DNA of 40,049 nt, from positions 1 through 40,049 of the IMG/VR virus record IMGVR_UViG_3300020442_003398; one strand, 5' to 3'. Below are positions 33,952 through 39,573 of this stretch, one piece after another (positions within the stretch are counted from its first letter, which is position 1; every line of letters starts with the position of its first letter). The stretch is from a virus. Under the pieces are notes generated by a model, which saw only the letters and a program-made list of their open reading frames with translations, was not told the DNA's origin and did no database searches. Position numbers and translations under genes: made by a program.

Positions 33952-34245
33952 ATGAGATACAAAACAATACCCACAAAAAAAGATGAAGATGGAACTAAAA
34001 TAGTTTCCACATCAATACTTCCCACCGTACGAAAAAAAAGTACTGATACTTTTGTTTTAATGGTAGAAAAGACTCGTCTTGATCATCTTGCTTTTAAATT
34101 TTACGGAAATCCAAACTATTGGTGGATAATAGCATCTGCAAATGATATAAAAGGAACTATGTATGCAAAATTAGGCTCGCAAATTAGAATTCCACGTGAT
34201 ATAAATGCGGTAGTTTCTGAGTATAATAGAATCAACGGACTATAA
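33952..34245 (+). CDS. 53: Baseplate wedge protein, T4 gp53-like (short)
   Basis: The 97-aa protein contains the LysM-like block of T4 gp53: RLDHLAFKFYGNPNYWWIIASANDI (T4 has RPEELANAIYGNPQLYWVLLMCNDN), residues about 43-67. T4 gp53 is 196 aa; here only the core is present, and the C-terminal half is missing. gp53 links wedges to the central baseplate in T4. The gene starts 2 bases after the gp48-like stop and its stop overlaps the start of the hub-like gene by one base, so these baseplate genes are translationally coupled. A LysM-type protein of other role cannot be excluded because of the small size. Confidence 0.75.
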   Translation: MRYKTIPTKKDEDGTKIVSTSILPTVRKKSTDTFVLMVEKTRLDHLAFKFYGNPNYWWIIASANDIKGTMYAKLGSQIRIPRDINAVVSEYNRINGL

Positions 34246-37200
34246 TGGCTACAAATAAAAATTCGAGAGATGCAATTTTAAAAGGAGTAAATAAACAAAA
34301 TATTGATCCTTTCTTAGTAAAAGATTGGTCCCGTGACTCTAATTTGCAATTTCCAATGAGAAATCATATTAGGCAGTGGGTGCGTGAAGAATTTTTAAAT
34401 CGTTGGCGAAACTTTGGTTTGAATTTTACACACACCGGTGGTGGAGAAGCAACTGATTATCCAATTGGTTTTGGTGTTGATCAATCGGTGGCAATAAATG
34501 CAGTCACCGCCGGTGATTCGGAGTTATTAAATGATTGGGATCAAAGTATATACAAAGGACCCAAAACTGCGTGGGCTCGTGTAGTTTCAAGTGCAATAGT
34601 AGAAGACCCAATTACCGGTGAAGTAAAAAAAGGATTTGTTCTCGGTGGTAATGGTAACTTTCATGACACATATGGATTTGATCGTGGTGATGGTGTAAAT
34701 GGAGGTGGTGGAGAAGCAAAAACTTTGTTAGGTTATGAATGCGATCAAGACCCAAATGCTGATATTAAGAAACACGAAATAGATGAACCAGACTATAAAT
34801 TCAGACCATCTCCTGGTGTTGTAAGTGTTGAATCCGAGGATATAGAACCTGGAAAAAATTTTAGAAGAACTACTGTAAATTTCACTTGTTGGAGTCAGGC
34901 CCAACTTGACTATTTAGAACCTTACTTTTTTCAACCTGGTATGACATTGATTGTTGAGTGGGGTTGGAATACATATCCAAAAGAAGCATTACTTGATTTG
35001 TCGGCAAGAGGGTATAAAACTATACACGGAATTTGGAACAACGAAGGATTACCTGTATCAGAAAATATTGCTCCTGATGATATTCCACCATCACCCGCTG
35101 CGTATCATCTTCGCAAGGGAAATGGAAATTACGGATTTGCAATGGGATTTATATCTAATTTCAATTATTCTATACGAGAGGATGGTGGATATGACTGCTC
35201 GGTGATGGTTTCATGTATGTCGGAAGTTGGTCAACAGATAATGAATAAAGCAGGAGCAGACAAACGAAAAGATAGTAACAAATATATTGACATAAAAACA
35301 TTCATAAATACTACTCTTAGAAGATCACTTATGGGTAAAAATGATGTAGGTGCAAATATTAATGATGGACTTGATCCAGAAGATCAAAAAGTGTTGGCAG
35401 TTATTAAAGGAGAATCAACTTCAACTATAGTATCAGCAGCCGAACAAGAAGCTGTGAAAATTGCACGTGGTAGATATTTTACATTTAACAAATATAATTC
35501 TGCTAAACCTTTTATGGCCGGTAAATCAAACGCCAATGGAGGTACTTATATAACTGTTGGATATTTGATTGATATATTTAATATATTTTTTAATAGAGTA
35601 TCTGATGATAAAACAAGAATAGTAGAATTTTCTTGTTACGGATCAAGGTGTATTGCTCATCCAAATATTAAATCAGTGGATGGAAGTGTATTACTTATTC
35701 CCAACTCAGTTGCACCAAGATGGAATAAAGAAACATTTCATGGTTCAACCGTATCAAGAATAAACACAGACGGAAGTACAACTGACGGAGCAGGATTTTC
35801 CGTTCTCAAAAAAGGAGAAAGTTCTGATTCAAGGGGTTGTTACAAAGAAATTACTAAAAACTTTATAGATATTTTAAGAAGCATGAATCCTGCGATTGCT
35901 CCGGGTGCAACACTTCAAGACGCATTGCAACAAAGTCCTCGGGACGATTTGCATAGACTACTTACGGTTAAATCTCTTCCTGGATATAATTTACAACATC
36001 CTGCGATTGCAGGAAAATTAGACACAGATTTAAAAAATGTGGTAATGAAAGAAAGTGGAAAAAAAGTGGATAGACTCAAAGAAGCATGGGAAGAGTCTGA
36101 AGACACAGTAAGACCATTTCCAGATTTTCATGTTGATGCTTTTAAAACCGGAAACACAATGGGATATTCAGGAAGAATTCAAGATTTATATGTTAGTTTA
36201 GATGTAATAACTAACTCGTTTGAATCAGGTGAAAATGCAACTGCAATATTACTTGACATTATGAAAAAAGTATCAACGGCAGCGGGAGACATTTGGAAGT
36301 TTAATGTGATTGGTGGTGATCTAAATACATCATCAAACTCTGTATTACAATTAGTAGATCAAAACTTTTCTGGTAGTGAACCTGTATCAACCCAAAAATA
36401 TGATGCTTGGGTTTTTCCTTCACATAGAGGTGATAGTATAGTTCGTGAACTAGATTTAAGTGTAGAACCATCTTCTGAAATGGCATCTATGATTGTATTT
36501 GGAAACTTAGATAAGAAAAATGGATTTTTTGCGAAAGAAGAACGTGACTTAATTTTACAAGGAGCAAGTAATCCGTTCAAAGATTTAACTCAACAAGTCA
36601 AAAATGTAGATGATAAACCAAAGAATATTGAAGATCCAGAAAAGTACATAGTAAGTGCATCTAGTAAATACTTTGGAATCAAAAATGCTTCAAATTCAAA
36701 ATTACCAGCATATCCAATTGACAAAGGAAAATACGGTAGTGGTAGAAGAAAAAGTCCTCTTGGACCATATGATATTACTTATACCAAACCAAATAGTGTA
36801 GTGCGATATAGATTAACAGCATCTTCTAGAGCTGAACAACAAAGAAACATTGAAAAAGCAAAAAAAGAGGGTGATGAAAAGAGTATCAAAACTGGATCAC
36901 GAACACCAAAAGCAAATCGTTATGCGAGTTCAACTGGTGGAGGAGATATTGCTCAACCTAGAACTTATGAAATTCAGGTAGATGGAGATTTTGTAAATTC
37001 GGTGGGTAGCAAAGTGGGTTTAGAAGGATCGACTAATTCAAAAGTTTTTGATGGTAACTTAGTATTTGAAGCAAATGCCCTTGGAGACGATAAAGTAACA
37101 AAATATCCAGATAGATTTCCTAAGTATTTGGTAGGAAAAATAATAAAATACGGTGACTACACATCAGGTTCTAACGATGTATTTGTCGAAGATGGTCATC

Positions 37201-37850
37201 CTGAACCAGATGACGATAAAAAATACAAAATAGTATCTGCCACAACATACTTTGGATCAGATAAAACAGAGTTTCCCTATCAGATACATATACAGGAACT
37301 TGAAGGTGAAGAAACCGGATTAAATGAATCAGCACTTCAACTGTATCATGTCACGAAACAGACGCATGGAGACGATTTTGAAGATCATTTACCAGACCGT
37401 TTAAAAAAATATATTGATGAAAATGATTTAGATGAAGACTATCTTTCAAAGCAAGAAGTGTTAGTATATCATAACACGGGTAATAAATACAAAAAAATGT
37501 CGGTTGTTCGTGGTCCTATTAGAATAGAAGATGATTCTTATGGTGTAGATGGAGACGATTACGAAATTCAAATTGAGTTGGTTGATATAGATAGAAATAG
37601 AATGGTTGATTTTTGTGAGTCCGATGCTTCTCCAAAAAACAATATGGTAAATAATATGCCGATTCCTGGTGTAGATTTATCTCTTACAATAGATGGAATT
37701 GAAGGTTTGCGATTGTATGATACATTTAATTGTGCAGGAGTTCCATTAAAATATTTTGATCGTGGCATCTTTGCAATAACAGGTGTTAAGCATTCAATCG
37801 CAGATGGTGATTGGGTTACTACAATTGAGTCGCATTATTATCCTGGATGA
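34245..37850 (+). CDS. Large baseplate protein, probable hub (gp27-like role)
   Basis: The 1201-aa protein has a segment near residues 205-250 (RRTTVNFTCWSQAQLDYLEPYFFQPGMTLIVEWGWN, read in parts) of a type seen in large baseplate proteins of environmental T4-like phages. Its C-terminal 80 residues have IPGVDLSLTIDGIEGLRLYD, then GIFAITGVKHSIADGDWVTT, a pattern close to the last beta domain of gp27-type hub proteins. No lysozyme domain is visible. Position after gp48-like and gp53-like genes supports a hub or wedge role. T4 gp27 is only 391 aa, so a fusion or large insertion is implied. Function rests on pattern and position. Confidence 0.6.
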   Translation: MATNKNSRDAILKGVNKQNIDPFLVKDWSRDSNLQFPMRNHIRQWVREEFLNRWRNFGLNFTHTGGGEATDYPIGFGVDQSVAINAVTAGDSELLNDWDQSIYKGPKTAWARVVSSAIVEDPITGEVKKGFVLGGNGNFHDTYGFDRGDGVNGGGGEAKTLLGYECDQDPNADIKKHEIDEPDYKFRPSPGVVSVESEDIEPGKNFRRTTVNFTCWSQAQLDYLEPYFFQPGMTLIVEWGWNTYPKEALLDLSARGYKTIHGIWNNEGLPVSENIAPDDIPPSPAAYHLRKGNGNYGFAMGFISNFNYSIREDGGYDCSVMVSCMSEVGQQIMNKAGADKRKDSNKYIDIKTFINTTLRRSLMGKNDVGANINDGLDPEDQKVLAVIKGESTSTIVSAAEQEAVKIARGRYFTFNKYNSAKPFMAGKSNANGGTYITVGYLIDIFNIFFNRVSDDKTRIVEFSCYGSRCIAHPNIKSVDGSVLLIPNSVAPRWNKETFHGSTVSRINTDGSTTDGAGFSVLKKGESSDSRGCYKEITKNFIDILRSMNPAIAPGATLQDALQQSPRDDLHRLLTVKSLPGYNLQHPAIAGKLDTDLKNVVMKESGKKVDRLKEAWEESEDTVRPFPDFHVDAFKTGNTMGYSGRIQDLYVSLDVITNSFESGENATAILLDIMKKVSTAAGDIWKFNVIGGDLNTSSNSVLQLVDQNFSGSEPVSTQKYDAWVFPSHRGDSIVRELDLSVEPSSEMASMIVFGNLDKKNGFFAKEERDLILQGASNPFKDLTQQVKNVDDKPKNIEDPEKYIVSASSKYFGIKNASNSKLPAYPIDKGKYGSGRRKSPLGPYDITYTKPNSVVRYRLTASSRAEQQRNIEKAKKEGDEKSIKTGSRTPKANRYASSTGGGDIAQPRTYEIQVDGDFVNSVGSKVGLEGSTNSKVFDGNLVFEANALGDDKVTKYPDRFPKYLVGKIIKYGDYTSGSNDVFVEDGHPEPDDDKKYKIVSATTYFGSDKTEFPYQIHIQELEGEETGLNESALQLYHVTKQTHGDDFEDHLPDRLKKYIDENDLDEDYLSKQEVLVYHNTGNKYKKMSVVRGPIRIEDDSYGVDGDDYEIQIELVDIDRNRMVDFCESDASPKNNMVNNMPIPGVDLSLTIDGIEGLRLYDTFNCAGVPLKYFDRGIFAITGVKHSIADGDWVTTIESHYYPG

Positions 37851-38272
37851 GTATGAAAAATAAAGACGAAAACATTTACATGAATAGTTTATATTCAACT
37901 TTGGCCAAACGTCGTGGTAAATTAGATGGTTTAATATTTGTAGAACCAATTACCAAAAAACCGAATGTAGACGAGATAAATTATAGTGACAAATTTATAG
38001 TTAGATACTTCGTAAAGAAATCTAATTCCGAGCAAAGTACAATTTATGAAATTGATTCCTTACAATTCAATACTATGCAGAAAAATTCATTTTATACTTG
38101 TATTCCTGTTTTATGGCAGGTGTCTGGTGATATTGAAACGAAAAATACTGATCAAGGTAAGATTGTCGGTGCAAGAGAATTTAATTTAAATTCTGTTAAA
38201 AAAGCAAACAACAAAATAAAAGGTATTGGGAAAGTACTCAACAATCCTCTTGAATTTTACAAAGATATATAA
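37847..38272 (+). CDS. Small protein coupled to hub-like gene, unknown
   Basis: The 141-aa protein overlaps the hub-like gene by 4 bases (ATGA type), so translation is coupled. Its first half has YSTLAKRRGKLDGLIFVEPI; the middle is predicted beta (KFIVRYFVKKSNSEQSTIYEIDSLQF). It has no known motif. A small baseplate or assembly protein is likely from coupling, but not shown. It is the last gene of the recognisable tail cluster. Confidence 0.65.
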   Translation: MSMKNKDENIYMNSLYSTLAKRRGKLDGLIFVEPITKKPNVDEINYSDKFIVRYFVKKSNSEQSTIYEIDSLQFNTMQKNSFYTCIPVLWQVSGDIETKNTDQGKIVGAREFNLNSVKKANNKIKGIGKVLNNPLEFYKDI

Positions 38273-38286
38273 TATAATATTATTAT

Positions 38287-39573
38287 ATGTTTATAGAAAA
38301 TCCAAATGATGCAAAGAAACTTATTTCTTTGCTCAATGATCAAACGAGTATTGTAAATTTGTATTATACCAAACCAAATATACATTCCGGTAAAAATATA
38401 CCTCTCGTTATGATGATATTCGTAAATCAAACTTACTATGTAGTTTCATTTAATCATCCTGATGCGATTAATATTCCAATTGAATTCTTGAACTTGGTAT
38501 ATGAAACAAACGGAAAAAAACTTATTTTTGATAGAAAGAAATTAAAATACCATGTACCAAAATTTAAAAATTGCGTAGATGCAACGATTTGTTCTTATCT
38601 ATCACTCAAAAGTGAACTTGACGGAAACTATATAGATTCAAGAGTAAAAGATTTTAGGTCTGTACCGATAATGATTTTATTTAAGCACTTCAAAAACCTA
38701 TGTCAATCCGTAGGAGATACTGAATACGAATCTAATTTGACAAAATATGAGCAAGATTTTTCAAATGCACTATTTGGGATTGAAAAAAACGGTTTATATG
38801 TTACCGATTTCAATTTAGGTGATTCTAACTTGGTTGATAATAATAATTTAGTATTTAGTCAGTATAATATGATGACTCCAACTGGTCGTCCAAGTAACGC
38901 ATTTGGGAATATAAACTTCGCTGCTCTGAATAAAAAGACAGGACAAAGAGATTGTTTTACAAGTCGTTTTGGAAATGATGGATTATTAATCATGGTTGAT
39001 TATGAAAGTTATCATTTGAGACTTTTAGCAAACTTTCTTGAATATGATTTACCCAAAACATCTTTACATGAGTATCTTGGCAAATATTATCACGGAAAAG
39101 ATACTTTGACTGAAGAAGAATATGAGTTATCAAAGAAAATAACATTTAATCTAATATACGGTGGTATATCCGATGATGTAAAAGAAAATGTTCCGTTTAT
39201 GAAAACTATATCAGAGTATGTTGATTCAGTTTGGAACTTTTATAATAAAAATAAATTTGTAGAAACATGGTACTATAAAAGAAAAATTGCATCTGTATTT
39301 TTTGGTGAAAAGATAAATTCATATAAAATATTTAATTATTTATTGCAGTCGGCCGAAACAGAAAAAAATTGTGAAGTTATTTTAAAGTTAAATGATTTTC
39401 TAAAAGATGTGCAATCAAAAATGATATTGTACACATACGATGCTTTTTTATTTGATGTGCATAAAAATGATTTTGAACTAATCAAAAAAATGCAACCGAT
39501 TATTACATCAAACGATAAGTATCCTGTACGTACTTACATGGGAAGAACTTATGGAGATATGAAGCAAATTTAA
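38287..39573 (+). CDS. Divergent family A DNA polymerase-like protein
   Basis: The 428-aa protein has family A polymerase motifs in order. TPTGRPSN near residue 198 corresponds to the TxTGRLSS segment. Motif A is MVDYESYHLR with Asp238, and motif B is KKITFNLIYG with Lys283, Phe287 and Tyr291 at the E. coli spacing of K758, F762 and Y766. Motif C is YTYDAFLFDV with Asp385. Both metal-binding Asp residues remain. The steric-gate Glu of motif A is His243, the O-helix Arg before Lys is Tyr279, and the HDE of motif C is YDA. Residues 1-170 look like a reduced exonuclease domain without clear catalytic acids. The far-T4 phage RM378 is known to use a family A polymerase split from its exonuclease. 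Replication or repair is inferred; activity is uncertain. Confidence 0.78.
   Translation: MFIENPNDAKKLISLLNDQTSIVNLYYTKPNIHSGKNIPLVMMIFVNQTYYVVSFNHPDAINIPIEFLNLVYETNGKKLIFDRKKLKYHVPKFKNCVDATICSYLSLKSELDGNYIDSRVKDFRSVPIMILFKHFKNLCQSVGDTEYESNLTKYEQDFSNALFGIEKNGLYVTDFNLGDSNLVDNNNLVFSQYNMMTPTGRPSNAFGNINFAALNKKTGQRDCFTSRFGNDGLLIMVDYESYHLRLLANFLEYDLPKTSLHEYLGKYYHGKDTLTEEEYELSKKITFNLIYGGISDDVKENVPFMKTISEYVDSVWNFYNKNKFVETWYYKRKIASVFFGEKINSYKIFNYLLQSAETEKNCEVILKLNDFLKDVQSKMILYTYDAFLFDVHKNDFELIKKMQPIITSNDKYPVRTYMGRTYGDMKQI

Follow-up and report, generated by a model that had tools for sequence, protein, structure and literature searches.

As judged from its sequence, a gene lying behind the baseplate genes of the window, i.e., the whole 40,049-base virus record analysed here, encodes a member of divPolA1, a group of divergent phage family A DNA polymerases. 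On alignments and structural model, the protein has lost its thumb, and the alignments indicate a polymerase site fixed in a non-canonical form, with a His as steric gate, a non-Arg residue at the position of the O-helix Arg, and a Tyr-Asp-Ala/Ser motif C. According to the main text of the published description, divPolA1 occurs in 14 phages of 155–190 kb, including the Flavobacterium phage immuto, which also carry a regular polymerase belonging to family A, B, or C. Its thumb is truncated and its 3'-5' exonuclease inactivated by the replacement of three Asp, the palm residues are kept, and it is inferred to act in replication, with replication genes downstream in a conserved order (PMC11348598, Virol J 2024;21:200). 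The window protein resembles this group, typified by immuto gp001, in its retained palm Asp, its truncated thumb, and its apparently inactivated exonuclease, as well as in having relatives with a regular polymerase and with replication genes downstream. It matches immuto gp001 in tblastn with an E of 5e-38 and 26% identity, and belongs to a different subclade. What is added here, as measured by a literature search at the level of main texts, is the fixed active-site signature, a constant companion gene (dn131), and a wider range. Indeed, the main text of PMC11348598 describes neither a His/non-Arg/Tyr-Asp-Ala(Ser) signature nor a companion gene, and no occurrence of divPolA1 in a Microcystis phage or in a 484-kb phage.

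The original prediction placed a family A polymerase at 38287–39573. Exactly this open reading frame (ORF) was found, and its identity as a family A polymerase homologue is confirmed by Pfam and by predicted fold. The ORF matches DNA_pol_A (PF00476) with an E of 7e-9 and 35.5 bits, for a curated cut-off of 34.3, and matches DNA polymerase profiles of PHROGs, phrog_17 being the best. This cut-off is failed by some relatives, since the Mel-JY01 protein has no match and the LR756508 protein lies below it. The structure predicted from 21 sequences (mean pLDDT 82.3, pTM 0.84) has palm and fingers folds. Its comparison with Pol I structures, which had been proposed as a check, gave Klenow with an E of 9e-18 (Foldseek) and Bst Pol I with a Z of 25.6, an rmsd of 4.3, and 406 residues aligned (VIA). 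On sequence and model together, the protein is classed as a thumb-deleted family A derivative and not as a typical Pol I. The features of the locus are collected in Table 1.

Table 1. Genes and polymerase features at the end of the window (residue numbers are those of the window protein unless marked Klenow).
Feature	Position	Strand	Remarks
Baseplate wedge subunit (gp53-like)	33952..34245	+	Conserved upstream in 106/106 loci
"Hub", large protein two genes upstream	34245..37850	+	124/124 loci; no PHROG match of its own
up141, function-unassigned protein directly upstream	37847..38272	+	Position conserved in 153/160 loci
divPolA1-type thumbless family A polymerase homologue	38287..39573	+	ATG start, 428 aa; Pfam, model, 265-homologue alignment
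N-terminal 3'-5' exonuclease fold remnant	38287..38721	+	Residues 1 to ~145, boundary approximate; DxE lost
Thumb junction	38791..38889	+	Residues 169-201; 19-37 residues between ERNG-end and R668 equivalents
Motif A, D238-YESYH243LR	38998..39021	+	Catalytic Asp retained; His in place of the steric-gate Glu
Motif B/O-helix, Y279-ELS-K283-KIT-F287-NLI-Y291-G	39121..39162	+	Arg replaced by Tyr; Lys/Phe/Tyr kept
N350-YLL-Q354-SA-E357-T358-EK-N361	39334..39369	+	Klenow N845/Q849 equivalents kept; E357 and T358 family-specific
Motif C, Y384-D385-A386-FLF-D390	39436..39456	+	Catalytic Asp kept; His-Asp-Glu replaced by Tyr-Asp-Ala, Ser in relatives
dn131, 131 aa	39620..40015	+	Downstream of polymerase in every locus with enough flank

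The impression that the exonuclease part is degenerate is borne out. Acidic residues occur at the two exo I positions (26 and 28) in 0% and 1% of 187 homologues, and inactivation of the 3'-5' exonuclease is supported by the absence of this pair in the alignment. The exo II Asp position, aligned by eye, holds D82 in the window protein and is about half Asp and half Asn in the family, so that the window protein may retain one of the three Asp that are replaced in the published group. New conserved residues are found in the remnant, namely H33, H57, D/E59, K84, D98, and P127. The first five are conserved in 184/184 to 186/186 members of the 187-homologue set, and in the wider set of 265 the figures are 249/258 for H33, 259/259 for H57, 254/260 for K84, and 256/261 for D98.

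The thumb was assessed from spacing, profile comparison, and model. In all 265 homologues, 19–37 residues separate the equivalents of the ERNG end and of R668, versus about 116 in Klenow. When a profile of 28 diverse members is compared with Klenow (HMMER), three collinear pieces are obtained, and Klenow 561-653 (the thumb, about 93 residues) faces just four profile positions. The first two pieces are weak alone; the one at Klenow 530-560 scores 0.6 bits, its placement being backed by its collinear order, the length of the chain, and the structural model. Between positions 173 and 241, the model is free of helices of four residues or more. Taken together, sequence and model indicate that about 90 residues of the thumb are deleted. 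Aligning the family to Klenow with MAFFT misplaced exonuclease and thumb, and the HMMER pieces and the model were used instead; global hhalign against Klenow was likewise uninformative for these two regions.

Textbooks list the steric-gate Glu, the O-helix Arg, and the motif C Glu among the determinants of family A polymerases. Klenow residue numbers were assigned to the window protein by alignment. The window protein shares with Klenow the palm, the fingers, and a degenerate form of the exonuclease fold, and it retains equivalents of Asp705 (D238), Asp882 (D385), Lys758 (K283), Phe762 (F287), Tyr766 (Y291), Asn845 (N350), and Gln849 (Q354); R668 is also retained, as R201. Both metal-binding Asp and most of the residues in contact with the dNTP are therefore present. 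In contrast to Klenow, it has neither thumb nor DxE, and His243 stands for the steric-gate Glu710, Tyr279 for Arg754, Tyr384 for His881, and Ala386 for Glu883. Both catalytic Asp and the three substitutions at gate, O-helix, and motif C Glu are thus as the original prediction read them, and the change of His881 to Tyr comes in addition, as do the thumb deletion and the companion gene.

This arrangement is shared by the whole family. Relatives were collected by IMG/VR scans with the window protein (20 relatives), its alignment (24), the immuto protein (312, of which 80 were kept), the Mel-JY01 protein (109, 80 kept), and a broad alignment (at least 579, 80 kept), those from the window, immuto, Mel-JY01, and alignment scans overlapping; no matches were obtained with the LR756508 protein. 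Duplicates were excluded from the counts (L033–L036 and L044 for the 187-locus set, also L217–L219 and L223 for the 265-homologue set). The equivalent of Asp705 is Asp in 265/265 homologues and that of Asp882 in 262/262 (3 gaps). The gate is His in all 265, and the equivalents of K758, F762, and Y766 are likewise kept in 265/265. At the R754 position, Tyr (239), Ile (22), Leu (2), Met (1), and Val (1) are found and Arg never, whereas the His881 equivalent is Tyr in 262/262, followed after the Asp by Ala (200) or Ser (62), so that motif C reads YDA or YDS. E357 is present in 264/264 homologues and T358 in 256/264. The residue count at the Klenow His734 position shifted from one alignment to the other and was left aside.

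Motif A was contained in some of the search patterns, and a control for circularity was needed. A search pattern without motif A is carried by 221 of the 265 homologues, and the gate is His in 221/221. Besides, 57 polymerase copies fetched solely via dn131 all have both Asp, the His, the Lys, the Phe, the Tyr, and the motif C Tyr. The R754 position in these copies is Tyr in 33, Val in 13, Ile in 4, and Arg, Gln, and Leu in one each (gap in 4); the third residue of motif C is Ser in 49 and Ala in 8. Ratios of dN/dS (NG86) are 0.068–0.121 for six close pairs and 0.063–0.179 against the window protein, dS being saturated in the latter comparison; these values indicate strong purifying selection on the family. 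Because His and Asp are invariant among the homologues and dN/dS is 0.06–0.18, the altered active site is conserved and does not reflect decay. The alignments thereby describe one fixed non-canonical site.

Outside virus collections, GTDB genomes gave no polymerase homologue with profile A1 and two MAG contigs with profile A3 (L215 and L216). Their bins are named Nitrosopelagicus and uncultured bacterium, dn131 is found on both contigs, and phage-like genes flank the polymerase copy of L216; these are probably phage contigs inside bins.

Two other groups of polymerases deserve comparison. TV-Pols are defined by a two-helix thumb and an RxxxK motif in the fingers (PMC2579912, in the text consulted). 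The window protein has no thumb helices in its model and reads YxxxK, with Arg at this position in 0/265 homologues plus 1/53 scorable dn131-fetched copies; it is not a TV-Pol because the definition requires both features. Like divPolA1, divPolA2 of barbaviruses is a second divergent phage PolA that lacks a homologous thumb; it lies beside a PolB, but has its own N-terminal globular domain and a variable neighbourhood according to the main text of the published description (PMC11348598). As a separate observation, immuto gp001 (L027:1-1326) matches the PADLOC model RTasPolA, of reverse-transcriptase defence, with an E of 6e-7 over residues 299-429, which may point to palm features common to divPolA1 and defence-associated PolA proteins.

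The window holds a T4-like head and tail module, with genes for portal, head maturation protease, major head protein, tail sheath, tail tube, tape measure, and baseplate proteins. Neighbours were counted in 187 loci, each gene being scored solely in loci with enough flank. The block runs gp53-like, hub (a name given from its position among baseplate genes), up141, polymerase, dn131, SSB, RecA-like, 5'-3' exonuclease, and helicase, and a median of 22 nt separates polymerase and up141. Since the window contig stops after dn131, the order from SSB to helicase is taken from relatives. Within fixed distances downstream, SSB is found in 71/91 loci, the RecA-like gene in 65/85, the 5'-3' exonuclease in 57/78, and the helicase in 50/67. 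Three members of the wider clade of the window (L020, L023, and L025, 44–47% identical) have the SSB-RecA-exonuclease-helicase genes about 8–11 kb downstream, beyond the scored distances. The SSB is gp32-like, the 5'-3' exonuclease of Pol I type (PF02739/PF01367), and the helicase of DnaB type. The placement of the gene "at the end of the tail genes" gives one half of the picture: the polymerase does adjoin the baseplate genes, and in relatives it equally heads a replication and recombination block.

The T4-like late-promoter word TATAAATA occurs before the polymerase in 2/179 loci versus 3.0 expected, and may not be the promoter of these phages. The same word is enriched before ssb (26/152 loci versus 2.6 expected) and weakly before hub (10/135 versus 2.3). 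As to existing annotations, the gene of Microcystis phage Mel-JY01 at 55792-56832 (L028:25327-26367), labelled "DNA polymerase I", matches the phage exonuclease profile phrog_107, and the actual divPolA1 gene nearby is labelled "hypothetical".

Homologues of dn131, about 130 aa long with a conserved VHRKK...NTLYTINxLN, were found in 177 loci. Wherever the flank was long enough, they follow the polymerase (120/120 and 52/52 loci), at distances that range from an overlap to about 4 kb. In the reverse direction, 44/44 dn131-fetched loci with at least 6 kb upstream carry a polymerase on the same strand, as do 13/36 of those with less than 6 kb. Among 50,697 annotated phage records, both genes co-occur in the same six (four immuto records, Mel-JY01, and LR756508). 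Outside these six, ten further records (Bacillus, Staphylococcus) match part of the polymerase alone at 23–24% identity, and one short phage record matches weakly. Several contigs recur between the dn131 locus sets and the whole block is co-inherited; therefore, the counts establish constant association and not binding. The linkage is no stricter than that of hub (124/124) or of the gp53-like gene (106/106), and it may be one of lineage inheritance. The model of dn131 is alpha/beta (pLDDT 93.7), with a strand-helix order that appears unlike an OB fold. Fold searches gave a best Foldseek E of 0.28 and a best VIA Z of 6.1 over 63 residues, below the meaningful level. No Pfam family above its curated cut-off, no NCBIfam, and no PADLOC model matched, and the matches in PHROGs were all weak, with an E of 0.036 for the copy in the window and of 0.0075 for that of immuto.

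The original prediction called for a search of the complete genome for a second polymerase and a separate exonuclease. The counts given here come from relatives, the window record being a 40-kb fragment. Of the 17 gene-carrying records larger than 100 kb, 15 encode a separate polymerase, either of family B (8 records: G001, G009, Mel-JY01, LR756508, and G014–G017) or of family A in a full-length form of about 780 aa (7 records: immuto, G010–G013, G018, and G020). The full-length enzyme of immuto is regular in its Glu gate, its RxxxK, and its DxE, and its motif C reads HDQ. In the two contigs of about 115 kb, G008 and G019, neither a second family A or B polymerase nor a family C enzyme was found, and six shorter contigs (39–62 kb) have no family B match. 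Since a separate polymerase is carried by 15 of the 17 larger records, the thumbless polymerase is very probably not the replicase. Two of the records show irregular polymerase genes. At 47415-48068 and 260623-266900, LR756508.1, the 484-kb phage, has a family C alpha match as well as family B pieces in two frames, and it either holds three polymerase families, including its divPolA1 gene, or has genes split by insertions. In G017, the 115-kb contig of L185, a family B match runs across two frames at 53555-55532 (610 + 306 aa), which suggests an insertion, a split gene, or a frameshift.

It had been proposed that the protein might be the replicase of a lineage related to the Rhodothermus phage RM378. 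This kinship is rejected: a search of the whole RM378 record with profile A3 found no divPolA1 homologue, and the annotated RM378 polymerase p092 (522 aa, 79587-81155), whose motifs look family B-like, has no profile match and an hhalign probability of 0.1%.

The reading that we put first, and whose chances we see as evenly balanced, is that the divPolA1 member serves next to a normal replicase as a second polymerase with an accessory role, active and non-proofreading, which synthesises short stretches during recombination or lagging-strand maturation. As read from sequences and model, the enzyme would be catalytically active and poorly processive, and would make short DNA patches at recombination intermediates, gaps, or Okazaki junctions. 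Its grip on the duplex would come in trans from dn131, the phage SSB, or both. The nuclease half that a classical Pol I has, and that is missing here, would be replaced by the Pol I-type 5'-3' exonuclease, whose separate gene lies a few genes downstream. The earlier suggestion of a specialised repair enzyme comes close to this reading and retains part of its appeal. Several points weigh against an accessory polymerase. From work on Klenow mutants, loss of Arg754, of the motif A Glu, and of the motif C Glu is expected to slow synthesis. The position of the gene directly behind baseplate genes makes late or virion expression possible. A dn131 linkage no stricter than that of hub and of the gp53-like gene may be lineage inheritance. 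To these points come the low score of the Klenow 530-560 piece by itself and the end of the window contig before the SSB-helicase genes.

A bolder idea, which we hold to be speculative and doubtful, is that divPolA1 and dn131 form an obligate two-protein enzyme in which the thumb has been discarded and the grip is provided in trans. The His gate and the rebuilt pocket would then confer an unusual activity found in no known family A polymerase, such as de novo priming with DNA or with mixed ribo- and deoxynucleotides, or synthesis from strand ends at intermediates made by RecA.

Alternatively, the protein could be a non-synthetic factor of DNA ends or of the replisome, its palm binding metal and nucleic acid for a structural or regulatory job, e.g., tethering SSB or RecA to the helicase or the replicase. 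The change of several conserved polymerase side chains in essentially all members, the loss of the thumb, and the new invariant residues in the dead exonuclease (H33, H57, K84, and D98) and after Q354 (E357) are consistent with such a job. However, both Asp and the O-helix Lys, Phe, and Tyr show no substitution among the 265 homologues, a constancy that a purely structural role would not require, and we regard this explanation as unlikely.

A two-component primase-polymerase, in which the polymerase and dn131 would start strands de novo, the missing thumb accommodating the first triphosphate, is quite unlikely and is drawn by analogy. The model is CCPol of SCCmec, a TV-Pol described in the text of PMC7581432 as a family A polymerase without exonuclease that becomes a primase solely with its small partner MP. 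In both systems, a family A polymerase that is small and non-proofreading comes together with a helicase and with an uncharacterised protein of small size (PMC7581432; PMC10061031, as far as their texts describe them). In the phages, dn131 accompanies the polymerase with the constancy reported above (120/120 and 52/52, and 44/44 in reverse), and a DNA-helicase gene is nearby. However, CCPol retains a Glu steric gate and a shortened thumb (PMC7581432), neither of which the window protein has, and the dn131 model is not OB-like, whereas MP-type partners are predicted OB folds in the text of PMC10061031. A DnaG-type primase homologue is present in 11/13 records tested, the two misses being contigs of 110–124 kb that are possibly incomplete; the Toprim_2 profile by itself matches in 8/13, and immuto gp091 matches DNAG_N. 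A role as sole primase is weakened by these DnaG-type genes.

The suggestion of an inactive, virion-related relic, or of a virion-associated protein expressed with the tail genes, draws on the location of the gene, which follows the baseplate genes directly and at short distances (a median of 22 nt from up141). We consider it very unlikely, given strong purifying selection (dN/dS 0.06–0.18) and catalytic Asp invariant in 265/265 and 262/262 homologues. Moreover, the replication genes are equally close, and the TATAAATA word, which may not be a promoter there, is not enriched before the polymerase (2/179 versus 3.0 expected). That the thumbless protein is itself the phage replicase is the least credible option: no other polymerase is known from the window, a 40-kb fragment covered by a family A search, but 15 of 17 larger records carry a separate one (family B in 8, full-length family A in 7) and RM378 has no homologue.

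The divPolA1 family and its main anatomy are already on record in the main text of PMC11348598; the uniform rebuild of the active site and the constant companion merit experiment. With at least 579 environmental phage genes, a uniformly replaced active site, no thumb, and strong selection, the family amounts to a natural experiment on the minimal family A polymerase, and dn131 offers a concrete handle on what replaces the thumb. For annotation, the lesson is that a PolA match beside T4-like baseplate genes may be something other than the phage replicase.
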